A DNA stretch of 64,000 nucleotides from a virus: positions 49,195 to 113,194 of IMG/VR virus record IMGVR_UViG_3300045115_000211. One strand, given 5' to 3'. Positions 17,333 through 41,404 of this stretch are shown in pieces. A model generated the notes under the pieces. That model was not told the DNA's origin, searched no databases, and saw only the letters and a list, made by a program, of their open reading frames with translations. The position numbers and the translations under genes were made by a program. Numbering within the stretch: the first letter of the stretch is position 1; every line of letters begins with the position of its first letter.

Positions 17333-17845
17333 ATGGAAGCAAACCCCATGGCAGTCGATTCGAGCGTCGGGACGCCAGAACCACAAATGGGCGTGGCGTC
17401 CGCCGTCCCGACCGGAGAGCCGATGTTCTGCGAGGTGTCCGTGGTCGACTGCTCCGACATCAGGAGCCAATGGCAGGCACGCTTCTCGGGAAGGTGCCCG
17501 CTCGGGATGGATCGCCTCCCGCAGCAGCACGAGAGCGACAAGGCGTTCTTCGAGAAGAACTGGAGGGGACCGAAGGACTGGCACGGCCTGCCCTACACCT
17601 ACGCGACCTTCATGCTCCTGCATTGCCCCAGCCAGGCCCCCAACCTTGTCGTCAGGAAGAGGTCCGGGAAGCCGTTCAAGTCGGGCGGGAAGATCGCCCA
17701 CGTCAAGCGGCTCATCAGGATCCAGCAGCCGTCGGCGATGCGACCGGGCGGGGTCAGGGAGATCGTCACGAGGCCGGCATACGAGTTCTACGAGGAGCAG
17801 GACGGGTACTTCGTCAACGCCCTGATGTGCGAGGCGGTCGAATGA
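17333..17845 (+). CDS. Unrecognised 170-aa protein
   Basis: Starts at or next to the predicted transcription start; a second in-frame ATG is at 17348 and neither has a Shine-Dalgarno. The product has a variable N-terminus, then WQARFSGRCPLGMDRL and a C-terminal domain with KIAHVKRLIRIQQP. No family recognised. Confidence 0.55.
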   Translation: MEANPMAVDSSVGTPEPQMGVASAVPTGEPMFCEVSVVDCSDIRSQWQARFSGRCPLGMDRLPQQHESDKAFFEKNWRGPKDWHGLPYTYATFMLLHCPSQAPNLVVRKRSGKPFKSGGKIAHVKRLIRIQQPSAMRPGGVREIVTRPAYEFYEEQDGYFVNALMCEAVE

Positions 17846-17985
17846 ACAGGAAGGCGCTCAAGGAGGACTTCAGGACGGCCGTCAGGGTCCTGGGATGGCC
17901 ATGGGCCATCCTGATGCTCCTCGCGTTCGGCCTGCTCGTCGCCATGTGGCTCGTCGGGCCTCCACATTGGAGCCCAAGACCATGA
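17842..17985 (+). CDS. Single-pass membrane miniprotein, 47 aa
   Basis: ATGA overlap with both neighbours. A charged N-terminus precedes one hydrophobic segment (PWAILMLLAFGLLVAMWLVG) and a short tail. Inner-membrane location is likely; function unknown. Confidence 0.55.
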   Translation: MNRKALKEDFRTAVRVLGWPWAILMLLAFGLLVAMWLVGPPHWSPRP

Positions 17986-18809
17986 GACTGATAGCCTCGA
18001 ACAGGGACTACTACGACCATTACGCCCGCGACCGCCGGCTGTCCGACCAGGCGTACAAGTGGGAGCGCAAGCCGCGGGTCGTCCCCATCGACTTCGCCAT
18101 CCCCGAGGTCGTCCACAACGGGCTATGGGGGGTCGGCGTCCCGAGGCTCCGGCACGTCAACTTCGACTCCTATGGGTTCGTCGTGTGGTTCTGCGGGCGC
18201 CCCGTGCCCGTCGTCAAGGTCGTCCGCTTCCCCTTCCAAGGCGGCAGGATCGTGGAATACTTCTACGGCTTCGACGAGTTGCCCGATGAAGTGAGGGGGG
18301 ACAGGCCGCTCCGCGGCAAGCTGCACGCCAGGTACAGGAACCCCTACCAGCGGTACCAGGACCTGTTCGCCCTCAAGGATGGCTGGGGGAAGGTCGCGTT
18401 CGAGTCGGTGTCGTACTCGGGGAGGGTGCTGCCCAAGGTTCCGGTCGCCGAGATGCACAGGCGCGTTGGCTCGCCCGTCTTCTGCCATCCCACGATGATC
18501 GATGAGCACCTGCAGGAGTTCCACGATGCCGGCGTCGAGATCAAGGTCATGGCGAGGGGCTGGCGCGTCCCGGAGAAGCCCTGCGTCCTCGTCAACCCGG
18601 TGCTGTCACACATCGAGTTCAACAGGGCCGTCAACGCCTTCGAGGCGTTCCAGGAGCTGGAGCGGTACGTGGCGAACGAGATGGCGCCGGTCGACGGGAG
18701 AATGGACAAGCCCATCCCCGACGCCATCAAGGCGCAGTCGAAGGGCTTCGACAAGATGTCGTTCAGGAGAGAGCCTGGGGGGAAGAGGGGACGAGGACAA
18801 CGCATTTGA
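17982..18809 (+). CDS. Conserved phage-type protein beginning with an RDYYD motif
   Basis: 275 residues, starting MRLIASNRDYYDHYARDRRL. The SNRDYYD opening followed by a beta-rich segment with the pattern FCGRPVPVVKV and FYGFDELP is a pattern I associate with a common uncharacterised phage family. Cys/His residues (FCHPTMIDEH) may bind metal. Starts by ATGA overlap. Confidence 0.6.
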   Translation: MRLIASNRDYYDHYARDRRLSDQAYKWERKPRVVPIDFAIPEVVHNGLWGVGVPRLRHVNFDSYGFVVWFCGRPVPVVKVVRFPFQGGRIVEYFYGFDELPDEVRGDRPLRGKLHARYRNPYQRYQDLFALKDGWGKVAFESVSYSGRVLPKVPVAEMHRRVGSPVFCHPTMIDEHLQEFHDAGVEIKVMARGWRVPEKPCVLVNPVLSHIEFNRAVNAFEAFQELERYVANEMAPVDGRMDKPIPDAIKAQSKGFDKMSFRREPGGKRGRGQRI

Positions 18810-24757: not shown

Positions 24758-25143
24758 GGAAGCAGGAGAAGTTCGTCCCATCCCTCAACGACCGCGGCTA
24801 CAGGTTCCGCTGCCATGCCAAGGGCGCGCCTGGGGCGTCCGTCGTGTTCGACGTCAGGACCCACCCCCAGTGCTTCGGAACGGGCGACATCCCCGCCCGC
24901 TCGACCTGCCTCATCGATGGCAAGGGGCGGGAGGTCTTCGAGCACGACGTGCTTGAGCTCAGGTCGACAGTCACCGACATGCACAAGCGCAACGCGACGG
25001 GCGAGTACGGCCCGATGCTGTTCCTCGTGGCGTGGCGCCACGGCGACCCCGTCCTGATCGACCAGGACGCTGTAGAATGGCTTATGGCAGGTAGGGTCGC
25101 TCGCCACGGGCGAGCGTGGATTGAAACGATGGAAGGGGATTGA
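24754..25143 (+). CDS. Unrecognised 129-aa protein whose 3' end is a CRISPR repeat
   Basis: ATGA overlap with the previous gene. The first ~112 residues look like a beta-rich protein (MRKQEKFVPSLNDRGYRF ... MLFLVAWRHGD). The last 17 residues (GRVARHGRAWIETMEGD) are encoded by the solitary CRISPR repeat at 25096-25127 and what follows, so the original C-terminus was probably replaced when the CRISPR module arrived. Confidence 0.55.
   Translation: MRKQEKFVPSLNDRGYRFRCHAKGAPGASVVFDVRTHPQCFGTGDIPARSTCLIDGKGREVFEHDVLELRSTVTDMHKRNATGEYGPMLFLVAWRHGDPVLIDQDAVEWLMAGRVARHGRAWIETMEGD
25096..25127 (+). repeat. Solitary type I-C CRISPR repeat
   Basis: A full 32-base repeat, identical at every position to the first full repeat of the array at 31272-31303, including the ACG loop variant (others have ACA). 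It lies upstream of the cas promoter, in the same orientation as the array, 18 bases after a TAGAAT element (25073-25078) and 29 bases before a hairpin. It could encode a small crRNA-like RNA or be the scar of module insertion. Confidence 0.85.
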
Positions 25144-25156
25144 CAAGGCGCGACTT

Positions 25157-25180
25157 CGCCCCGCAAACGGGGCGTATATT
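25157..25180 (+). terminator. Hairpin (terminator-like) after the solitary repeat
   Basis: CGCCCCG (25157-25163), loop CAAA, CGGGGCG (25168-25174), then TATATT. A 7-bp GC stem with a short AT tail; it may end transcripts from the upstream gene or from the solitary-repeat RNA before the cas promoter. Confidence 0.5.
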
Positions 25181-25268
25181 GGACGGGTCATGGACTGTGG
25201 CTACCATGGGATTTCTCAATGCCACTTCTTGGGTCGTTGCGAAAAAAAAAAGATTCTATGGAAAGGGG

Positions 25269-25298
25269 TTGACTCCCGACCCATAGTTGTGAGATACT
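25269..25298 (+). promoter_or_regulatory. cas operon promoter TTGACT-18-GATACT with upstream A-tract
   Basis: -35 TTGACT 25269-25274, -10 GATACT 25293-25298, spacer 18 bases (others have 17). A run of ten A at 25242-25251 sits just upstream where an UP element would lie. Leader ~58 bases to cas7. Confidence 0.7.
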
Positions 25299-25362
25299 GT
25301 TGCCAGTTGGACCAAGGTGGTTCAACGTGTCGTAGAAACGAAGGAAGAACAGGAGAGTGAGT

Positions 25363-26265
25363 ATGTCGCAGAAGTCGCAGAAGGTCGAGTTCGAGGTTAA
25401 TGGAGTTCGCTATGTGGTGTTCGTCGATGCGCGGAGGTCCAACCCTAACGGGCAGGGACAGGGCGAGAACCAGCCCAGGCACTTCGACGACGGCACCGTG
25501 TGGGCCAGCGCAGAAAGCATCAAGCGCGGCATCAGGGACACGTGGATCGCAGAACTGGATGGCGTCCCCGGCTGCGACGTGTTCGTCTACCCCAGGCGCC
25601 CCATCGTGGAGGCCATCGCTGCGGCCCGTCCCGGACGCCAGCGGTTCGACGACGCCGGCGAGATGGCTGCGGCGGTACGCCAGAAGTACATCGACGCACG
25701 GGCGTTCGGTGTCGTCCTGGCAGACGGCAAGGCCGAGAGCGGCGACGATGACGATGGCGGCTCCAAGAAGAAGTCAAAGCAGCTTTCGATCGGGCTCAGG
25801 GGGCCAGTCGTCGTCACCGACGCCGACTCCGTCGAGCCCACGCCGATCGAGGAAATGGACATCTCTCGCTGCTGTCCCCACAAGGACGACAACGACAAGG
25901 ACCACAACCAGGGGAAGAAGTGGTTCGTCCGCTACGGCCGCCTGCGCTTCTGCGTCTATGTCGAGCCGCACATGGCTCGCCAGAGCGGGTTCAGCAAGGA
26001 AGACCTCGGGCGCCTGGAGGATGCCCTGAAGGACGTCTACAAGCACAGGCGCACCGCCAGCCGCCCCGACATGAGGACCGTGGCCGTCTACCGGCTGACC
26101 CCTCGCGAAGGCATGAAGCCCTCGTCGAGGGCGATGGACGAGATCACCGACCGCATCCAGTCCAAGCGGGTCGTCCCCGGAGACGTCCCGACCGAGGGGT
26201 GCTACTCCCTGCCCAACGCCGAGGAGTTCTGCACCGAGCAGGTTCTCGTCGAAAGGATCGACTGA
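25363..26265 (+). CDS. cas7: Cas7 (Csd2) backbone subunit, type I-C
   Basis: 300 residues from ATG 25363 (AGGAG 7 bases upstream; GTG 25357 is the alternative). The N-terminus DARRSNPNGQGQGENQPRHF is the Csd2/Cas7 signature (family NGNPNGDP..GN.PR), followed by a Lys/Arg-rich SIKRGIRDTW. The central part has a basic acidic-basic insertion (DDDDGGSKKKSK) and CCPHKDDN. Cas7 polymerises along the crRNA spacer. First gene of the operon here, whereas in known I-C loci it follows cas8c. Confidence 0.9.
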   Translation: MSQKSQKVEFEVNGVRYVVFVDARRSNPNGQGQGENQPRHFDDGTVWASAESIKRGIRDTWIAELDGVPGCDVFVYPRRPIVEAIAAARPGRQRFDDAGEMAAAVRQKYIDARAFGVVLADGKAESGDDDDGGSKKKSKQLSIGLRGPVVVTDADSVEPTPIEEMDISRCCPHKDDNDKDHNQGKKWFVRYGRLRFCVYVEPHMARQSGFSKEDLGRLEDALKDVYKHRRTASRPDMRTVAVYRLTPREGMKPSSRAMDEITDRIQSKRVVPGDVPTEGCYSLPNAEEFCTEQVLVERID

Positions 26266-26272
26266 CCGACAC

Positions 26273-26309
26273 GATTGCCGCCTGTGGCTGCTTGCCACAG
26301 GCGGCAATC
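26273..26309 (+). other. Perfect 16-bp hairpin between cas7 and cas5
   Basis: 5' arm 26273-26288, loop TGCTT, 3' arm 26294-26309, fully complementary. There is no T-run after it, so it is not a classic terminator; an mRNA-stabilising or partial attenuation element that raises Cas7 over Cas5/Cas8/Cas3 is plausible, matching the several-to-one Cas7 stoichiometry in Cascade. Confidence 0.65.
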
Positions 26310-26326
26310 AACCAAGGGAGGCAACC

Positions 26327-27007
26327 ATGGCTACCAGCAGCAACGTCAGGGTCCTGGTCGGGATTCGCGGGCGCAGGGCCTGCTTCTCCAACCCGTCCGC
26401 CGGCAAGATCAACAAGTTCTCGTACCCGTTCATCACGGTGTCGGCGGCGCGAGGAGTGGTGGCGTCCGTGTTCCATCGCCCGCAGATGGACTGGGTGCCG
26501 ACCCGCATTGCGGTCATGAGGGCCGGACGGTCCGCCAACGTCGCCAGCAACGAAATCGACTTCGATCTGTCGTCGACCGATCCCGTCTTCGCCGACGAGG
26601 CAAGGATGCAGGTCAGCGCGCGGATTCTCGTTGACGTCGACTACATCATCGAGGCCGAGCCGGTCGTGCTCTGCCCCGGAACCACCGATGACCCGAACAC
26701 GCCGGAGAAGTATGCCGCACAGTTCAACCGCATCTTGGTGGACGGCAAGGGGCTGTACTACTCCACGCCGTGCCTTGGCCCGCGCCAGTACGTCGGGCGG
26801 CTCTATCCCGTCGAGCGGTTCCCGGAGCGGGGGTGCGCGATCCCCGACCTGGAGGTCCGATCCATGTTGGTCGGCATCTCCAAGGGCGCCGACAGGCGCG
26901 ACGGCGGACGGGACTATCCCGTTTTCGCCGACATCCGCCTCGTAGATGGGATCTTCTCCGCCCCGAGGTTCGTGTCGTCCATGTTCAACCCTGGAGAATC
27001 GGCATGA
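26327..27007 (+). CDS. cas5: Cas5 (Cas5d-type) crRNA-processing subunit, type I-C
   Basis: 226 residues; AAGGGAGGCAACC before ATG. VGIRGRRACFSNPSAGKINKFSYPFITVSAARGVVASVFHRPQ follows the Cas5d pattern (acFtrPe.kvEr.SYd..TpSAArGilea.fwkP). In type I-C, which lacks Cas6, Cas5 cuts the pre-crRNA at the repeat hairpin. The overlap with cas8 (ATGA) indicates coupled translation. Confidence 0.88.
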   Translation: MATSSNVRVLVGIRGRRACFSNPSAGKINKFSYPFITVSAARGVVASVFHRPQMDWVPTRIAVMRAGRSANVASNEIDFDLSSTDPVFADEARMQVSARILVDVDYIIEAEPVVLCPGTTDDPNTPEKYAAQFNRILVDGKGLYYSTPCLGPRQYVGRLYPVERFPERGCAIPDLEVRSMLVGISKGADRRDGGRDYPVFADIRLVDGIFSAPRFVSSMFNPGESA

Positions 27008-28836
27008 TTTCGATGAGCCCGGTCCAGGAGGTCATCGCCCTGTATGACGCGCTTTCGGCGGCTGGCCAGATGCCGCCCCTTTGTTGGGGGCAGGCGACGA
27101 TCGGAATGACGGTGAAGATCGACGATCATGGGGGCGTCAGGACCGCCATGCCGCTCGGCAATGACTGCTCGATGGTCGTCCCCATCCCGTTCGTGTCCAG
27201 GTCCTCTGGCCTGGCGCCGACATTCGGGACGGACAACGCCAAGTACCTCGTGGGCGAGGCATGGGAGGCGTGGCGCGAACACCACCTCGCCTTCTCCGAC
27301 AAGGCCGCGTTCCCTCCCGCATTCGTCCACTTCCTCAAGAACGGGAAGACCCCGTTCGTCCCCACCAAGGAACCCAAGATCATCAGGCTCTCGGGTTCGG
27401 ACTTGTCGGGGACGTTCGTCATCGAGTTGCCTGACGGCACCTACCTGCACGAACACGCCAGCGTCAAGTCGTTCTGGCAGCCGGACAACATCATCGATTG
27501 GGAGAACCACGGCAGGCTGTCCCAGGGTCGAGACCCGATCCGCACCGTCGAGGGGTATTCATCGGTCGACGGCAAGTGGGGCAAGCTCGTCGAGTTCCAC
27601 GCCGCGATCGGGATGGTCGTACCCGAGGCCCAAGGCTCCGCCAAGCTGGGGGCGGTAAACACCAGTGGCGGGGGGTACTCTTCGTACGGAATGGACGGCG
27701 GCTTCACTTCCCCCATGACCATCGACCAGACGTTCAAGTTGGCATCGACGATCAGGTTCCTTGGCAACAGGGACAAGGCCGCAGGAGACCGAACGTCGTG
27801 CAGGCCGATCGTCGCGCGGGGAAGGAAGATCAGCATCATGTCCGACAGGATGAAGGCCGTGAAGGCCCTCGTCCTGGGCTGGGGCGAGCCGACGGCGGTG
27901 TCGTGGATGAACGAGGAGTTCGCCAAGGACGACGACTCCATGAGGAAGGCCATCGACGTCATCGATGGGATCATGTGCGGCAAGGCCGAGGTTCCTGGCG
28001 TGACGCAGGACGACCGGGTGTGCTTCATGGCGATGTCCGCCCCGACCAAGGGTCGGATAGCCATTGACGAGTTCTGGTCTGGGGACGCGCCGACCGTCGC
28101 CGTCAAGATGGCCAAGTGGCACGCCGCATCGATGACCACGGATCCCGACATGACCCGGCAGGTGCAGACGAGGTACCAGTTCGTGAAAAGCCTCGGGATT
28201 GGCCACGACAAGGCGCTGAACGAGAGCGAGGCGCACGTCGTCAGGGGACTGTTCCAGTCCGCCATCGAAGGCGAGCAGATGCCGGTCGACATCGCATACC
28301 ATGTCAGGAGGGCATGCCAGAGGGTTCTGGCCACAGGGGACGCATTTGTCCACGGGCGTTCGAGCCTGTACAGCCCACTGCGCACGCTCCGGGGCTGCAT
28401 GGCTAGGGCGGGAGTGGGGTTCAATGAGGGAGGATACGAGATGATCGATAAGACCGCGGCATACCAGTTGGGCGTCCTGCTGATAGCGTTCGACGACGCC
28501 GTGCGGAGCGACGAGTGGAGGCGGACGAGGAAGTGGAGCCGCAGCAGCGTTAACGGCCTGCACTCGAACACGAAGAGCATCCTTCCGACGTGCCTGGCGA
28601 AGCCGTCGGCGGCGGTGGCCACAATGCGGCATAAGCATATGCAATACTACGCGCGGTATTGGCCGCAGGACGCCGTCAACATCAACGACGAGTGCTTCTC
28701 CGCTCTGCCCGCAACCCCTCTTTCGCAGCAGCAGCGGGACGAGTTCTTCGCCGGCACCGCACACGGCCTCGAACTGCGCTCCAGGAAGATCGCCGCCATC
28801 AAGGCGGCAAAGACCCAGAGGGAAGCGCGTGAATAG
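27004..28836 (+). CDS. cas8c: Cas8c (Csd1) large subunit, type I-C
   Basis: 610 residues. The N-terminus has the Csd1 feature FVSRSSGLAPTFGTDNAKYLVGE (family RSsgi.PnflcDNa.YvlG). The middle has VSWMNEEF and the C-terminus the helical bundle AAYQLGVLLIAFDDAV and FSALPATPLSQQQRDEFFAGTAHG. Cas8c recognises the PAM and recruits Cas3. It contains an internal in-frame start for a Cas11c-like subunit (28441). Overlaps cas3 by 8 bases. Confidence 0.88.
   Translation: MISMSPVQEVIALYDALSAAGQMPPLCWGQATIGMTVKIDDHGGVRTAMPLGNDCSMVVPIPFVSRSSGLAPTFGTDNAKYLVGEAWEAWREHHLAFSDKAAFPPAFVHFLKNGKTPFVPTKEPKIIRLSGSDLSGTFVIELPDGTYLHEHASVKSFWQPDNIIDWENHGRLSQGRDPIRTVEGYSSVDGKWGKLVEFHAAIGMVVPEAQGSAKLGAVNTSGGGYSSYGMDGGFTSPMTIDQTFKLASTIRFLGNRDKAAGDRTSCRPIVARGRKISIMSDRMKAVKALVLGWGEPTAVSWMNEEFAKDDDSMRKAIDVIDGIMCGKAEVPGVTQDDRVCFMAMSAPTKGRIAIDEFWSGDAPTVAVKMAKWHAASMTTDPDMTRQVQTRYQFVKSLGIGHDKALNESEAHVVRGLFQSAIEGEQMPVDIAYHVRRACQRVLATGDAFVHGRSSLYSPLRTLRGCMARAGVGFNEGGYEMIDKTAAYQLGVLLIAFDDAVRSDEWRRTRKWSRSSVNGLHSNTKSILPTCLAKPSAAVATMRHKHMQYYARYWPQDAVNINDECFSALPATPLSQQQRDEFFAGTAHGLELRSRKIAAIKAAKTQREARE
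28441..28836 (+). CDS. cas11c: Probable internally translated Cas11c small subunit
   Basis: ATG 28441 is in frame within cas8c and preceded by GAGGGAGGATACGAG, a strong internal ribosome site. The 131-residue product is the C-terminal helical region of Cas8c. In characterised type I-C systems the small subunit Cas11c is made exactly this way (established for other I-C loci); its presence here is inferred from the position and the ribosome site. Confidence 0.6.
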   Translation: MIDKTAAYQLGVLLIAFDDAVRSDEWRRTRKWSRSSVNGLHSNTKSILPTCLAKPSAAVATMRHKHMQYYARYWPQDAVNINDECFSALPATPLSQQQRDEFFAGTAHGLELRSRKIAAIKAAKTQREARE

Positions 28837-31234
28837 GCGCGACAAGACCCGATACGTCGGGATGGTCGAGGGCCTCGGCCTCAACCCCTATTCCCGCCCC
28901 GCGCATCTGGAAAACGGCTTGCTGGCCCCGCGGGAGCGGTGGGAGGTGATGCCGGAACACCTGGGCGCCGTCGCGGCCTTGGCCAAAGCGTTCGGAGACA
29001 AGATCGGTCTCGGAGACATATGCGAGGTGGCGGGAGGCGGGCACGACACGGGAAAGTTTGACCTCCAGATGCTTGGCAGGTTCCTTGGCCGCGTCGAGTC
29101 GTTCGACCATCCCGCCCTCGGCGCCGCCCTGTTGGACGCCGCCACGGAAGGCATACTGACGCAGCCGATCCTAGGGCACCACCGCTACATCCCCGACGAG
29201 ACGGAGGAGGACGCCTCGGAATGCGTGTCTGCAAGGCTGGAGAAGGCAGCCACCCATCGGCATTCCATCGAACTGATACCCTTTCTGGATCGCGCCGCCG
29301 AGGCAGCCAGGACGGCGAAGTCCGTCCTGAAGGCGGCGTTGCGGTCGGAATTCCCGAACGCCGCCGACCAGGAGCGCTTCTTCCCGATGTTCTTCTTCGC
29401 GATGCAGAAGTTCATCAACTCGGCCCTCGTCGATGCGGACTGCCTGTCAGCCGAGAGGTTCCACAAGGGTCACGGACGCCGGAACAGGTTCCCCCCGATG
29501 TCCGTCCTCCTGGATCGACTCGTGAGGTTCCAGGCCCGGGTTGCCGCCGCAGGAGCGGCGACGGCGGAGCCTTGGCTTGTTGAAATGCGCAACGACGTGT
29601 GGGCGTCCGCGATCTCCGCCGCCCGGCTGGAAGCCTCGTTGTACTTCCTGACCGCCCCGACGGGAAGCGCCAAGACGCTGGCCTACGTCGTGCTTGCGAT
29701 GATGAAGGCCGTCAGCTTGGGCCTCGACAGGGTGATCATCGTGCTGCCCTATTGCGCGGTCACGTCCCAGGTCAGCGACGTCCTTCGGGCCGCCATCGGC
29801 AGGGGCAATGTGATAGAGCACCACACGGGCTACGACCCCAAGGAACGAGTCAAGTCTTTCCGCTCGTACCGCCAGATACTGGCGAACACCCCAAGGAACA
29901 CATCGGCGTTGCACAAGGAGTCCTCCAGCCTGCAGGAGGAGATGAGGCAGACTTTCGAGAACTGGGACGCCCCCGTGATCGTCACCACGCGCGAGCAGTT
30001 CGACGAGTCCTTCTTCTGCCGGCTCCCAGGGCGCAGCCGCAAGGTCCACAACATGGCCAGGAGCGCCATCGTGTTCGACGAGATCCAGGCCGGCAACAGG
30101 GACCTGACCATACCGTTCGTCGGGATGCTGCACGTCCTGCGGTCGCTGTACCGCTCGGTCGTCATCTGCTCCACGGCCACCCAGCCGTCCTATCACAAGT
30201 CTGACGACAGGCAGTGGGGACTGGAAGGAGGGGTCGATGTCGTCGCCAGGCATCGCGAGTATTTCGCCATCGCTTCTCGACGCACCAGCATGACCAGGAT
30301 AGGCAGGAAGTCATCCCGAGAAGTGGCCGAGATGGTCGCCGAGCACCGCCAGGTCATGTGCGTCCTGAACACGCGCCTCAACGCCGTTCTCGTCTCGACA
30401 CAACTGGAGAGGATGGGGGTTCCACACATCCTGCTGTACTCCTTGCGCTGCAAGCGCGAGCGCAACCGGGTGGTTCGCCTGGTGGCGAGGTGCCTGGCAG
30501 CAGGCATCCCCATCAGGCTGGTCACCACCCAGGCGGTCGAGGCGGGGACTGACTTCGACTTCCCGGTCGGGTATTCCGAGGACGCCCCGTTGGACTCCCT
30601 CGACCAGCGCCGCGGTCGAGTCAACCGGCACGGAAGGCGTGGGACGAGCCAGTTCTACGTGTTCACCCTGTGTGACGGCAACAGCAACCCCTCGTACGTA
30701 GCGGGCTTGGCCTCCACCGAGACCGTCCTCTCATCGACGGGGGACTTCAACGTCGTCGACGTCGGGACGATGGACGCCTACTACGCCAGGATGTTGAGGA
30801 GCGAGAAGCCGCTCGACAAGCACAGGATCGTCCCCGACAGGCACATGTCGATGTCCGGGCGCGGCGGTCTTTTCAGGTCGAAGTCGAAGTATCCTCCGAC
30901 CGCCGGGGCCAATGTCTACAGGACGAGGTTCGCCTCGTACGACGAGTTCAAGTACATCGGCGGAAAGTGCAGCGTCGTGATCCCTACCAACGCCGAGTGC
31001 AGGCGGGCGATAGCCGACATGGATGCCGCCATGGCATCGGGAAAGAAGCCCGCTCGAAAGACGTTGGCCACCTTGAGCGGATACGTCGTCAGCATCTATG
31101 AGAACGAACTGGATGATCTCGCCCGTAAGACCATCTTGGAGAACCACAATGGGTTCTTCGTCCTGCGCGATGTGGCTGGCTTCTATAATGCCAAGAGGGG
31201 TCTGCTGATCGCTGGGATGGATGGAGTGGATTGA
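28829..31234 (+). CDS. cas3: Cas3 HD nuclease-helicase, type I-C
   Basis: 801 residues from GTG, overlapping cas8c. HD domain: His44, HD at 72-73 followed by TGK, DH at 93-94, HH at 117-118. Helicase: APTGSAKT at ~276-283 (Walker A; usual second Gly is Ala), DEIQ at 417-420 as in other I-C Cas3, STATQP at 448-453, VTTQAVEAGTDFDF, QRRGRVNR at 593-600. It unwinds and degrades targets found by Cascade. The stop codon lies inside the degenerate first CRISPR repeat. cas1, cas2 and cas4 are absent around it. Confidence 0.92.
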   Translation: MNRRDKTRYVGMVEGLGLNPYSRPAHLENGLLAPRERWEVMPEHLGAVAALAKAFGDKIGLGDICEVAGGGHDTGKFDLQMLGRFLGRVESFDHPALGAALLDAATEGILTQPILGHHRYIPDETEEDASECVSARLEKAATHRHSIELIPFLDRAAEAARTAKSVLKAALRSEFPNAADQERFFPMFFFAMQKFINSALVDADCLSAERFHKGHGRRNRFPPMSVLLDRLVRFQARVAAAGAATAEPWLVEMRNDVWASAISAARLEASLYFLTAPTGSAKTLAYVVLAMMKAVSLGLDRVIIVLPYCAVTSQVSDVLRAAIGRGNVIEHHTGYDPKERVKSFRSYRQILANTPRNTSALHKESSSLQEEMRQTFENWDAPVIVTTREQFDESFFCRLPGRSRKVHNMARSAIVFDEIQAGNRDLTIPFVGMLHVLRSLYRSVVICSTATQPSYHKSDDRQWGLEGGVDVVARHREYFAIASRRTSMTRIGRKSSREVAEMVAEHRQVMCVLNTRLNAVLVSTQLERMGVPHILLYSLRCKRERNRVVRLVARCLAAGIPIRLVTTQAVEAGTDFDFPVGYSEDAPLDSLDQRRGRVNRHGRRGTSQFYVFTLCDGNSNPSYVAGLASTETVLSSTGDFNVVDVGTMDAYYARMLRSEKPLDKHRIVPDRHMSMSGRGGLFRSKSKYPPTAGANVYRTRFASYDEFKYIGGKCSVVIPTNAECRRAIADMDAAMASGKKPARKTLATLSGYVVSIYENELDDLARKTILENHNGFFVLRDVAGFYNAKRGLLIAGMDGVD

Positions 31235-32678
31235 AATTGGACGAGCCGTCTGCCGGATGAGGACAGAGCAAGTCGCTCGCCACGGGCGAGCGTGGATTGA
31301 AACGACTCCACCCGTCGGGATCAATGGCGGACAGAGGTCGCTCGCCACAAGCGAGCGTGGATTGAAACCCCGACTCGTTCCTGCTGCCCGAGTTCGACGA
31401 GTCGCTCGTCACAGGCGAGCGTGGATTGAAACTGTTCGGGCTTTTGCGACCAAGCCTGATAGCGCTTGTCGCTCGCCACAGGCGAGCGTGGATTGAAACA
31501 GGTTGTTGCCGAGCGCCGCGAGCCGCAACACGAGTCGCTCGCCACAAGCGAGCGTGGATTGAAACGACTCTCGCCGCCGGCATCAATGAAGGTCATGGTC
31601 GCTCGCCACAGGCGAGCGTGGATTGAAATGCGCGCTCGCCGTACGCCTGCCCAAGCTCAGGGGCGTCGCTCGCCACATGCGAGCGTGGATTGAAATGGGT
31701 CTTCGGGCAGGCACAGACCCTGTAGGTATGTCGCTCGCCACAGGCGAGCGTGGATTGAAATAGCGCCTGCTTGGCGGCGATGTAGGCGTCCAGTTGTCGC
31801 TCGCCACAGGCGAGCGTGGATTGAAATGAGAGCGAACGCCGCGGACATCGCGGCACGACGGGTCGCTCGCCACAGGCGAGCGTGGATTGAAATATCTGGG
31901 TTCGGTCCCTGTCGCCGATGACGCGACGTCGCTCGCCACAGGCGAGCGTGGATTGAAACCTCCCGTACCCGCCGGGCATGCTCAGGTGCTACGGTCGCTC
32001 GCCACAGGCGAGCGTGGATTGAAACGACCGTGAGGGCCTGCCCCAATGTATGTGGCGGTCGCTCGCCACAGGCGAGCGTGGATTGAAACGCGTACGTGCA
32101 ACTCGTACGAAAGCTGGCCAACGGTCGCTCGCCACAGGCGAGCGTGGATTGAAACCTTCACTTGCCCCCGTCTCGCCGCTCGGCGTGTCGCTCGCCACAG
32201 GCGAGCGTGGATTGAAACGCCCTGCATGCCGTCAGGGCCGAGGCGGTGAAGATCGCTCGCCACAGGCGGGCGTGGATTGAAACGTGACGAACGGGGAGAC
32301 AACGGTCGACCCTCTGCGTCGCTCGCCACAGGCGAGCGTGGATTGAAACGCCTCCAAAGCGCCGCGCCACGGCCGCCATGGAGTCGCTCGCCACAGGCGG
32401 GCGTGGATTGAAATATGATGTTCGAACTGGACTGCCCGATCCCGTCTGGTCGCTCGCTACAAGCGAGCGTGGATTGAAACATGTCGAGTCCCTCCTGATA
32501 CGCGCCCACCATGGAGTCGCTCGCCACTGGCGAGCGTGGCATTGAAACAAGGTCCGCAGGATATCGATGTGGCCCGACGAGGTCGCTCGCCACAGGCGAG
32601 CGTGGTATTGAAACCGCAAGCCCCGCTGATCGACATCACCTGCCCGGTCGCTCGCCACAGGCGAGCGTGGATTGAAAC
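31208..32678 (+). CRISPR. Type I-C CRISPR array: 22 repeats plus a degenerate first repeat
   Basis: Repeats of 32 bases (consensus starts GTCGCTCGCCACAGGCGAGC, ends GTGGATTGAAAC or T) with an 8-bp stem CGCTCGCC/GGCGAGCG. Starts: 31272, 31337, 31401, 31468, 31534, 31598, 31665, 31730, 31796, 31862, 31928, 31994, 32058, 32124, 32187, 32252, 32318, 32383, 32449, 32516, 32582, 32647. The 20th and 21st are 33 bases (one base inserted before ATTGAAAC). Spacers are 31-35 bases, all different. A degenerate repeat (31208-31237) overlaps the cas3 stop and gives one more 34-base spacer. Orientation matches the cas operon; no separate leader. Confidence 0.97.
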
Positions 32679-32762
32679 GAGGATTGAACACAAACAAACC
32701 CTCTTTGCCGTTGACTCCGCACCGCCCCGTGACAACCTCGTCTGGTCGCCATACAAAAGCGG

Positions 32763-32791
32763 TTGACTCCGCATGCCAACGATGCCATAAT
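32763..32791 (+). promoter_or_regulatory. Promoter TTGACT-17-CATAAT after the array
   Basis: -35 TTGACT 32763-32768, -10 CATAAT 32786-32791. A second TTGACT at 32711 has no matching -10 (AACCTC) and may be a relic. Drives the gene at 32819. Confidence 0.75.
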
Positions 32792-38899: not shown

Positions 38900-40074
38900 G
38901 CCCCGTCGCCCGTCAGACTCGAAGAACGCCCGCCACGGAAGACGGGAAGCGCCCCAACCACCACCTCGTCCTCAAGGAGATCGAGGACATATTCGGCGAG
39001 CCCTGCGTCCTGCGCGAGCACAGGGACATCCACATCTCCAACGGCAAGCCCACGGAGAGGGACCTCATCGTCTCCACCCACCCCCTCCTCGGACAACCCT
39101 ACGTCCACTGCTCACTGTCGAGGTGCAACGTCGTGGCGCCGGGCCAGGGCGTCACCGTCATGGCCTGCCGCAGCCGCCCGAACCTCAAGTACGCCTTCGC
39201 CTACGGCCCGGTCTCAGACGTCCAGATCATGATGGCGTTCCCCAGGCGCCACCAGCTCGACATCCTGCTCTGCCTCTCCAGGAGGGCTAGGAAGGAGAAC
39301 CCCGACATCGCCATCCCGGTCATCGAAGCCTCGACCATGAGGATCTTCGAGGCCGCCACCCTTGGCTTCCTCTCCAGGCGCAGGAAACTGATGGACATGG
39401 GCATCCGCATGTCCAGGGGCGTCGTCCTCTCGGGACCCCCGGGCAACGGCAAGACCATGCTGTGCGCGTGGCTGCAGGAGAAGGCCAAGTCCATGGGACT
39501 GTCCGTGTCCCGCATCGAGGGAGGCGCCCTGCACACCATCTACGGCAGGGGACAGCTCACCGACCACCTCGCCTCCCACGACATCACCATCCTCGACGAC
39601 TTCGACGTCGATGTCCTCCGGCGCAAGGGCGCGTCGGCCCCCCTCGCCTGCGCCCTGCTCACCGCCATGGACTTCGACAAGGCAAGGAAGCCCTGCCTGC
39701 GCGTCGTCACGACCAACGAGGAGCCCAGCGACATCGACCCCGCCTTCCTCCGGCCGGGCAGGCTGGAAACCATCATCCGCATCGACCCCCCGACCGACGA
39801 CATGCGCTCCGCCCTCGCCATGTCGTGGCACCCCGCCCTCTCCACCCGCCTGCTCGACGCCCCCGGCAACGGCTCAACCATCGATGACCTCGTCAGGGCC
39901 ACGAGGGGCATGTCCTTCGCCGAGATGGACCTCGTCAAGGCGGAGCTCGCCACCGTCCTCATCGAGAGGGACGAGTGGAGCCTCCCCGACGCCCTCGCGT
40001 CCTTCAGGTCCAAACGCGCCGGCGTCGCCGAGATGTCGTCAGGAGGCAAGGGGCTGAAGGGGTTCAAGGAATGA
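38896..40074 (+). CDS. AAA+ ATPase
   Basis: 392 residues; GGGGAGAGCC before ATG. Walker A GPPGNGKT near residues 180-187, Walker B ITILDDFDVD with Asp-Asp, sensor 1 VVTTNEEPSDIDPAFLRPGR with the arginine finger, as in FtsH/Cdc48-like classical AAA proteins; an N-terminal ~130-residue domain precedes. There is no protease domain or membrane segment. Could remodel replication or host proteins. Confidence 0.8.
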   Translation: MSPVARQTRRTPATEDGKRPNHHLVLKEIEDIFGEPCVLREHRDIHISNGKPTERDLIVSTHPLLGQPYVHCSLSRCNVVAPGQGVTVMACRSRPNLKYAFAYGPVSDVQIMMAFPRRHQLDILLCLSRRARKENPDIAIPVIEASTMRIFEAATLGFLSRRRKLMDMGIRMSRGVVLSGPPGNGKTMLCAWLQEKAKSMGLSVSRIEGGALHTIYGRGQLTDHLASHDITILDDFDVDVLRRKGASAPLACALLTAMDFDKARKPCLRVVTTNEEPSDIDPAFLRPGRLETIIRIDPPTDDMRSALAMSWHPALSTRLLDAPGNGSTIDDLVRATRGMSFAEMDLVKAELATVLIERDEWSLPDALASFRSKRAGVAEMSSGGKGLKGFKE

Positions 40075-40080
40075 CAGCCG

Positions 40081-40109
40081 TTGACTCCCGAAGACGCCAA
40101 CGCTAGAAT
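40081..40109 (+). promoter_or_regulatory. Promoter TTGACT-17-TAGAAT, leaderless
   Basis: -35 TTGACT 40081-40086, -10 TAGAAT 40104-40109; ATG 40116 begins seven bases after the -10. Confidence 0.78.
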
Positions 40110-40115
40110 GCCCCC

Positions 40116-40424
40116 ATGAGACCCAAGTCGGCACTCAGGAACAGGGCGGAATGGCTCGCCACCCGCGAGGCGTGGGACGAGGAAAGGGGCATCCAGCTCG
40201 CCGCCCTCCAGGTCGAGCTCGCCCGCCGCATCGAGGAGAAGTCCCAGAAGACCCTCAACCGCCTCGAAGGCCTCGGCGACCACGCCGCCATCACGGCGAT
40301 CGCCCACGCCATGCCCGACTCCGTCATGAAGTTCTATGCCCTCCAGTCCGCCTCGAAGGCCAAGGAAAAGACCAAGGGAAAGGCCGCCCGCGGAGGGGAC
40401 GCTGCCGGCGGGGACAAGCCATGA
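40116..40424 (+). CDS. Unrecognised 102-aa helical protein
   Basis: Leaderless start. A highly charged helical N-terminus (NRAEWLATREAWDEERGIQL) and a Lys/Ala tail; likely DNA-associated. It resembles small terminase-like or scaffold helices only loosely, so left unassigned. Confidence 0.55.
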   Translation: MRPKSALRNRAEWLATREAWDEERGIQLAALQVELARRIEEKSQKTLNRLEGLGDHAAITAIAHAMPDSVMKFYALQSASKAKEKTKGKAARGGDAAGGDKP

Positions 40425-40820
40425 GCACGGACAGGAAGCCAACCCTCGTGACGGGAAAGGCGGCCGTCCTCCGCGTCCACCCCGACGAAGGACTCGTCCT
40501 CGTCTTCGCCCCGGCGGGGGACCCCCTGCATACCTTCCTGCCGACCGCGGCCGTCCACTACGGCCCCAAGGGCCGCCGCCGAAGCCTACGTCAGACGCAG
40601 GGATGACTACAGGGACGCCAAGGAAGAAGCCCACATCGGATGGAAGCACGCCTGGCAAGGCACCATGCGCGACGCCGAAGGACTCCTCAACGTCGTCACC
40701 GCCGTCTCCGACGCCAAGGACGCCGACGGGGAGACCAGGATCCAACTGTCCCGCGAGGACGCCGAGTTCGTCGGCAGGCACACGGATGCCCTGGACGCGC
40801 AACCCAAGGAGGCACAGTGA
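40421..40820 (+). CDS. Frame-broken gene, ~132 aa
   Basis: ATGA start. The first ~50 residues (MSTDRKPTLVTGKAAVLRVH ... HYGPKG) are followed by a premature stop at 40606, while the +1 frame continues sensibly (EAYVRRRDDYRDAKEEAHIG ... RHTDALDAQPKEAQ) to 40820, exactly at the GTGA of the next gene. An extra G in AAGGGCC (40568-40574) would explain it. Function unknown. Confidence 0.5.
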
Positions 40821-41404
40821 GCATCGGGACCTGGAAGAAGGAGTTCTACCCCACCACCGCCGCCGAGGCCTGCGACGAGTCCAAGGCCGCAGGCAGCGAC
40901 CTCCCTGCCATCCTCCACTCGATCCGGAAGTGGGAAGGCCTGCGCCCCAAGAACCTAGCCAGGCATTGCCTCAGCAAGGACGGAGGCAACAACCGCCTGC
41001 TCAGCCTAGGCCAGCAATCCTTCGTCGTCAACGACGACACCTGCGCCCTCTGCCATGCCCATACCCCCGGCCAGCATGGCCAGCCCCCTCGCGTCGCCAG
41101 GCCCCAATGCCACGAGCCCCCGAGGTGCCCCGTCGTCCTGCTGGCGAACGACTGCGACGACTACTCCAGCCCCTATCTCCACTGGTGCGACACGGGCAGC
41201 CCAATGAGAATGCTCAAGGTCCTCAAGGAAGCCGCCAGGATGGCCGCCAGGGCGTCCAAGGCGGCCAAGGCAGCCAGGAAGGCATCGAAGCCCAGGGACG
41301 GCCGCCGCGACGCCCAGAAGGGCAAGGAAGCCCACGGGGGCGCACGGGAAGAGCGGGAAGCACGGGAAGCACGGGAAGCGCGGAACGAAGGAGGAACGCC
41401 ATGA
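40817..41404 (+). CDS. 195-aa protein with Cys motifs and Ala/Lys-rich tail
   Basis: GTG start by GTGA overlap. The region ~75-115 has CALCHAHTPG, CHEPPRCP and NDCDDYSSPYLHWCD. The C-terminal ~60 residues are low-complexity Ala/Lys/Arg/Glu repeats. It ends in EGGTP, encoded by the ribosome site of the next gene. Function unknown. Confidence 0.55.
   Translation: MSIGTWKKEFYPTTAAEACDESKAAGSDLPAILHSIRKWEGLRPKNLARHCLSKDGGNNRLLSLGQQSFVVNDDTCALCHAHTPGQHGQPPRVARPQCHEPPRCPVVLLANDCDDYSSPYLHWCDTGSPMRMLKVLKEAARMAARASKAAKAARKASKPRDGRRDAQKGKEAHGGAREEREAREAREARNEGGTP

Follow-up and report, generated by a model that had tools for sequence, protein, structure and literature searches.

The type I-C module

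The viral record IMGVR_UViG_3300045115_000211 from IMG/VR carries a type I-C CRISPR-Cas effector module and, 0.26 kb upstream of its cas operon, a solitary CRISPR repeat (R0) followed by a guide-like sequence that partly matches the operon's promoter (Table 1). The record is linear and 113,194 bp long; the window analysed here is its final 64 kb, and coordinates refer to the window unless the record is named. A first-pass annotation made from the sequence had described the cas7-cas5-cas8c-cas3 genes and a 22-repeat array as intact, which is borne out by four uninterrupted open reading frames that match I-C models. The I-C models from NCBIfam and PADLOC are the best or near-best matches for Cas7c, Cas5c and Cas8c, with scores below the NCBIfam curated cut-offs, which indicates a divergent type I-C system. 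The closest relatives found share 25–31% identity with the module's Cas proteins, and the nearest solved structures for Cas5 and Cas7 are chains of I-C Cascade. No cas6 is seen. The predicted product of an internal start in cas8, a 131-residue C-terminal piece, has the position and size expected for Cas11c, which is made from an internal start in cas8 in type I-C (PMC7684278); the ATG at 28441 thus fits a hidden Cas11c subunit, here a candidate.

The array repeat is 32 nt long, contains a stem and ends in ATTGAAAC, as is characteristic of type I-C repeats. Only 37 bp separate the cas3 stop codon from the first repeat, which leaves no room for a separate leader, and the promoter scan applied here shows no promoter-like site between 25298 and 32763, so that the array is most simply co-transcribed with the cas genes. 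Directly after the last repeat, at 32679–32690, GAGGATTGAACAC forms a second imperfect copy of the repeat 3′ end. The Cas1, Cas2 and Cas4 families gave no match anywhere in the 113,194-bp record, a linear fragment of the virus, while control families were detected. This search of the rest of the contig, together with phage-like flanks, supports the earlier proposal of a phage-borne type I-C effector module without adaptation genes.

Table 1. Features of the module and its immediate flanks, in window coordinates
Feature	Position	Strand	Basis or remark
Upstream phage gene	24754..25143	+	129 aa, no Pfam or PHROG match; 3′ end passes through R0
Solitary complete repeat R0, GTCGCTCGCCACGGGCGAGCGTGGATTGAAAC	25096..25127	+	Within 3′ end of preceding gene
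Guide-like sequence, GATGGAAGGGGATTGACAAGGCGCGACTT	25128..25156	+	Directly after R0
G+C-rich 7-bp hairpin, CGCCCCG-CAAA-CGGGGCG	25157..25174	+	Closes R0 element; no T-run follows
Predicted target	25254..25273	+	Protospacer-adjacent motif (PAM) TTC at 25254-25256, 17-nt seed region at 25257-25273; 14/17 identity to guide
Sigma-70-like cas operon promoter, TTGACT-18-GATACT	25269..25298	+	Within protospacer footprint
cas7 (Csd2-like, divergent)	25363..26265	+	Csd2 model, E 2e-28
cas5c (precursor CRISPR RNA (pre-crRNA) endonuclease family)	26327..27007	+	Cas5c model, E 1.6e-15
cas8c (Csd1-like, divergent)	27004..28836	+	Cas8c model, E 4e-13
Candidate Cas11c small subunit	28441..28836	+	Internal ATG in cas8, Shine-Dalgarno TGAGGGAGG upstream, 131 aa
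cas3 (HD nuclease and superfamily 2 (SF2) helicase)	28829..31234	+	PADLOC Cas3c, 1e-119
Truncated repeat, GTGGATTGAAAT	31226..31237	+	12 nt of repeat end; spans cas3 stop, 34 nt before repeat 1
CRISPR array	31272..32678	+	22 repeats GTCGCTCGCCACAGGCGAGCGTGGATTGAAAC, 21 spacers of ~31-36 nt
Promoter of next phage gene, TTGACT-17-CATAAT	32763..32791	+	Promoter scan
Downstream phage gene	32819..33532	+	phrog_6452

A solitary repeat and a putative guide to the cas promoter

The most informative feature of the module is R0 in combination with the promoter match. R0 lies 6.1 kb before the array, whose repeat it shares. It stands at the first coordinate of the interval given in the first-pass annotation, which mentions neither R0 nor the truncated repeat nor the internal start in cas8. 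The guide GATGGAAGGGGATTGAC that follows it is identical at 14 of 17 positions to TATGGAAAGGGGTTGAC, with mismatches at positions 1, 8 and 12, and this site stands behind TTC, the published type I-C PAM (PMC7913775). The predicted target extends over the −35 box (TTGACT, 25269) in the sole promoter-like site before cas7; sigma-70-like promoters number only two between 24600 and 33000, one per module end. Across the record, the match is the best of 4,229 TTC- or TTT-flanked sites, with the runner-up at 10/17. When 225,746 other stretches of the record took the place of the guide in comparisons with the 235-bp cas leader, a single one reached at least 14/17 at a TTC site. With the TTGAC part set aside, the observed 9/11 is reached by 0.1% of such stretches and 9/12 by 0.4%.

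As a crRNA-like unit beside cas genes with a partial, PAM-flanked match to the cas promoter, R0 resembles the CreR elements of types I-B, I-E and V-A, for which autorepression through a partial match and without cutting is established (PMC13131331, PMC12737573). It differs from them in lying on a phage and in type I-C, in its undegenerated repeat and in its mismatches within the seed, and the repression attributed to it is a predicted one.

A scan of type I-C loci

The same arrangement was sought under one common rule in 66 array-bearing I-C loci. The 600 bp preceding a cas gene had to contain a copy of the 8-nt end of that locus's repeat, with no more than one mismatch, and the next 17 nt had to agree at 14 or more positions with a site in those 600 bp that follows a given trinucleotide. 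Nine such pairs were obtained with TTC, the window included, one each with CTT and TTT, and none with any other trinucleotide; shuffled repeat ends gave 0 or 1 pairs per run. Type I Cascade flips out the bases at positions 6 and 12, and it is mostly at these positions that the other eight TTC loci carry their mismatches (six and six, respectively). The scan recovers both the I-C PAM and the mismatch periodicity of Cascade untaught, and the window is among its nine TTC matches.

Seven to eight of the other eight elements share the anatomy seen in the window, which consists of a repeat handle, a guide and a strong G+C-rich hairpin, with a T-run in several of them; the R0 hairpin is placed like the terminator hairpins of these elements. 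Such CreR-like I-C elements occur in Delftia, Kushneria, Planctomycetales, Clostridia and others. In the eight bacterial or contig loci the units precede cas5 (L074 11438, L098 11163, L099 11201, L110 11275, L121 11269, L054 11997, L065 2323 and L022 6319) and comprise a degenerate repeat end, a guide of 17 or more nt and a terminator-like hairpin.

Array spacers were also compared with their own locus in all 66 cases. This gave many 11/12 matches, which is the chance level, and only one locus (L038, a 527-kb phage record without Cas1) showed a 12/12 match that lies at a cas promoter and follows a PAM-like triplet. Four repeat-like units lie directly before cas5 in L038 (6207–6468), and the last is followed by ACTTTCAATGGA, which is identical at 12 of 12 positions to an upstream promoter-like site behind TTT. 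From its sequence, L038 appears to offer another instance, unrelated to the first, in which a guide points to the cas promoter of the phage that carries it.

Proposed mechanism and alternative explanations

We consider it likely that the module is a phage-borne, adaptation-less I-C effector that shares a transcript with its array and is autorepressed through a CreR-type guide of its own. A mechanism is proposed in which an I-C interference module, whose adaptation genes were either lost or never acquired, is expressed from the promoter at 25269–25298, which would drive cas7-cas5-cas8c(-cas11c)-cas3 and, via the short gap, the array. Judging by its family, Cas5c would process the transcript into crRNAs that load Cascade. 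The module would then constitute a fixed set of 21 targets, full matches to which would recruit Cas3, and new spacers would need host Cas1–Cas2 or recombination. R0 may be part of the upstream gene's transcript or may have a separate promoter; Cas5c would cut the R0 RNA, the downstream hairpin would end it, and the crRNA-like guide would lead Cascade to the TTC-flanked site over the −35 box of the cas promoter. As pairing is partial and confined to the seed side, Cascade is expected to occupy the site and obstruct RNA polymerase, with no cutting by Cas3. Free Cascade would in this way lower its own synthesis, and repression would ease once array crRNAs, a target or a host anti-CRISPR drew Cascade away. 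The transcription and processing of R0, its binding by Cascade and the repression itself are what we infer from the DNA.

Several observations weigh against this proposal. The mismatches at positions 1 and 8 fall in the seed and not at tolerated positions, the R0 hairpin has no T-run, and R0 is full and undegenerated whereas the repeats at the eight other loci are degenerate. TTGAC, which also forms the −35 box, makes up five of the 14 matching bases, and part of the guide match could therefore stem from promoter-like sequence, although the copy after R0 has no −10 element at a usable distance. Close relatives that would allow a conservation test were found neither in IMG/VR and INPHARED nor in PLSDB and GTDB contigs. 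Exact peptide seeds of Cas7, of both neighbouring genes and of ClpX retrieved no relatives in IMG/VR, and a search for the repeat sequence in IMG/VR and GTDB found none.

R0 could instead be an inert relic, left complete when the cas operon inserted into, or recombined within, an older array whose repeat was truncated on the right. Repeat sequence does bracket the operon on both sides (R0 on the left and the truncated repeat at 31226–31237 on the right), the truncated copy lies one spacer length before repeat 1, and the rare loop CACGGG is common to R0 and the first array repeat and absent from all other array repeats. A relic leaves the PAM-flanked promoter match and the hairpin at the second-repeat position unexplained, however, and we regard inertness as unlikely. 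A relic origin is compatible with autorepression as evolutionary history, in that the relic may have been recruited as a regulator.

A different alternative concerns what the effector does to its targets. The Walker A motif of Cas3 reads APTGSAKT (29654–29677), a form unique to the window in a comparison set of 23 viral and 80 bacterial loci, as GK[ST] is found in all of the approximately 91 other Cas3 proteins with a readable motif. Loss of the glycine could yield a system that binds targets rather than shredding them, that is, a programmable silencer. Yet the HD residues, DEIQ and motif VI of Cas3 are present, a Gly-to-Ala change in Walker A may be tolerated, and a one-base sequencing error (GCC for GGC) could account for it, which makes a silencer an improbable reading. 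It is also rather doubtful that both apply, with CreR feedback on the Cascade level and an altered Cas3 in a phage I-C system whose array would mainly bind and silence genes.

R0 might also act as a solitary-repeat RNA anti-CRISPR (Racr) that poisons a host type I-C system, in which case its likeness to the cas promoter would be due to chance. Phages often carry solitary repeat units, and a working type I-C Racr has been demonstrated (PMC10651486), to which R0 is similar as a solitary I-C repeat in a phage genome. Racr units are, however, described as not associated with cas genes (PMC10651486), whereas R0 lies close to the phage's own I-C operon, repeats the phage's own array repeat and carries a guide that matches the operon promoter behind the right PAM. 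A Racr built on this repeat would strike the phage's own Cas proteins as well, and we judge this function quite unlikely.

An origin of the module as an assembly chimera, or as a bacterial I-C locus that was misbinned, is most improbable. In favour of such an origin, the record is linear, fragmentary and derived from a metagenome, the cas genes have a codon-usage score (15th–42nd percentile) below that of the median phage gene and their G+C content at third codon positions is 0.85–0.87 versus 0.89–0.96 in sampled phage genes. Against it, G+C content stays at 0.61–0.67 over 22–33 kb without a step at the module edges, strand and promoter style are those of the next phage gene, the upstream gene extends into R0, and a close bacterial homologue is absent (best 28–33%).

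Related phage systems

The first-pass annotation did not recognise the gene order with its directly abutting array; that the order is unfamiliar in phages is not supported. Adaptation-less CRISPR systems of huge phages, an I-C variant included, have been published (Al-Shayeb et al. 2020, PMC7162821; see also PMC11656645). That I-C variant resembles the present module in its phage genome, I-C-like Cas5, Cas7 and Cas8, an array and the lack of cas1 and cas2; compared by description, it differs in that another helicase replaces Cas3, whereas the window encodes a true HD-Cas3. The type I-F system of ICP1 (as described in PMC11656645) is likewise phage-carried with an array of its own, but it has an adaptation module and the present record has none.

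When IMG/VR was searched with a Cas7 profile, 23 loci emerged; Cas1 is missing from 17 of the records, and several loci combine I-C-like effectors and arrays in varied gene orders. Adaptation-less I-C systems recurring in phage contigs are of a known kind. The cas7-cas5-cas8-cas3 order also occurs in L028 (IMGVR_UViG_3300048672_001038), a viral contig with no cas1 in the record. It differs in that its array lies between cas8 and cas3 (cas7-cas5-cas8-array-cas3), its repeat (GTGAATCTACCGGC...) is unlike that of the window and no solitary repeat was found in it. The cas7 promoter region of L028 is duplicated before the preceding gene (8200 and 8908).

In a Cas3 tree, the protein from the window falls within the bacterial I-C set (SH-like approximate likelihood-ratio test (SH-aLRT) support of 96) on a long branch and apart from most other adaptation-less phage systems; a Cas7 tree leaves its position without resolution at a branch length of 10. 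Phage relatives were rejected as the source of the module, as the trees do not join it with other adaptation-less phage systems. This separation and the long branches suggest a separate, fast-evolving lineage, and independent captures of phage I-C systems are the simplest reading. MT836695, MT836291 and MT837094 carry a phage label but resemble I-C loci of bacteria, a Cas4-like gene being present in two of them, and they served as alignment partners only.

Phage setting and spacers

Simple codon-based gene calling across the record gave 180 genes, 165 of them on the plus strand. PHROG and Pfam matches include the large subunit of ribonucleotide reductase, an NAD+-dependent ligase, a ClpX-like ATPase, an RNA polymerase sigma factor, RtcB, an HNH nuclease, an endolysin and three DNA methyltransferases, whose genes are related to one another (record positions 17372–18349, 29941–30978 and 39956–41038). 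Assignment to a phage is based on these genes for replication and metabolism, together with the IMG/VR classification; no terminase, portal or capsid gene was found among 50 proteins scanned. No tRNA was found in the window. Relatives of phrog_6452, the family of the downstream gene, occur in phages of Caulobacter, Mesorhizobium, Sphingobium, Erythrobacter and Microbacterium. The motif TTGACTCC recurs before genes at 32699, 32763 and 34382, with CCCTnnnTGCCGTTGACTCC at 32699 and 34382, and the recurrent motif is probably a phage promoter family.

The first-pass annotation took competing phages or host loci as the likely spacer targets; searches of 50,697 phage and 72,556 plasmid records revealed no TTC-flanked protospacer for the array. 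A blastn search of the array against phages and plasmids returned mostly repeat-to-repeat matches to other I-C arrays and short weak matches; those of spacer 5 to Rhodococcus and FuzzBuster lack a TTC PAM and were set aside as chance. No spacer has a self-target in the record, where the best match is 25/32. Spacers 1 (31303–31336) and 5 (31565–31597) are alike at about 23 of 33 positions, which suggests homologous targets. A degenerate pattern derived from both picked out three related viral primase/ATPase genes; these lack TTC and match at just 20–24 of 33 positions, and no claim is made for them.

Implications

The reviews cited here list CreR for types I-B, I-E and V-A only (PMC13131331, PMC12737573). 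In bacterial type I-C, CreR-type units that include a terminator hairpin appear from the scan to be common, and the scan provides specific loci. The phage-CRISPR, CreR and Racr literature cited here describes no CreR-type element that serves the CRISPR system of a phage, nor does that literature address how phages set the dose of their own CRISPR systems. Standalone repeats near cas genes have reportedly been catalogued across type I by Shmakov et al. in 2023, along with phage mini-arrays that are said to act possibly on host cas genes. If the proposed autorepression is correct, the virus would carry both a CRISPR weapon and an RNA thermostat for that weapon. The R0 thermostat would also be a sensor, as expression of the system would rise in response to competing crRNAs or a host anti-CRISPR.

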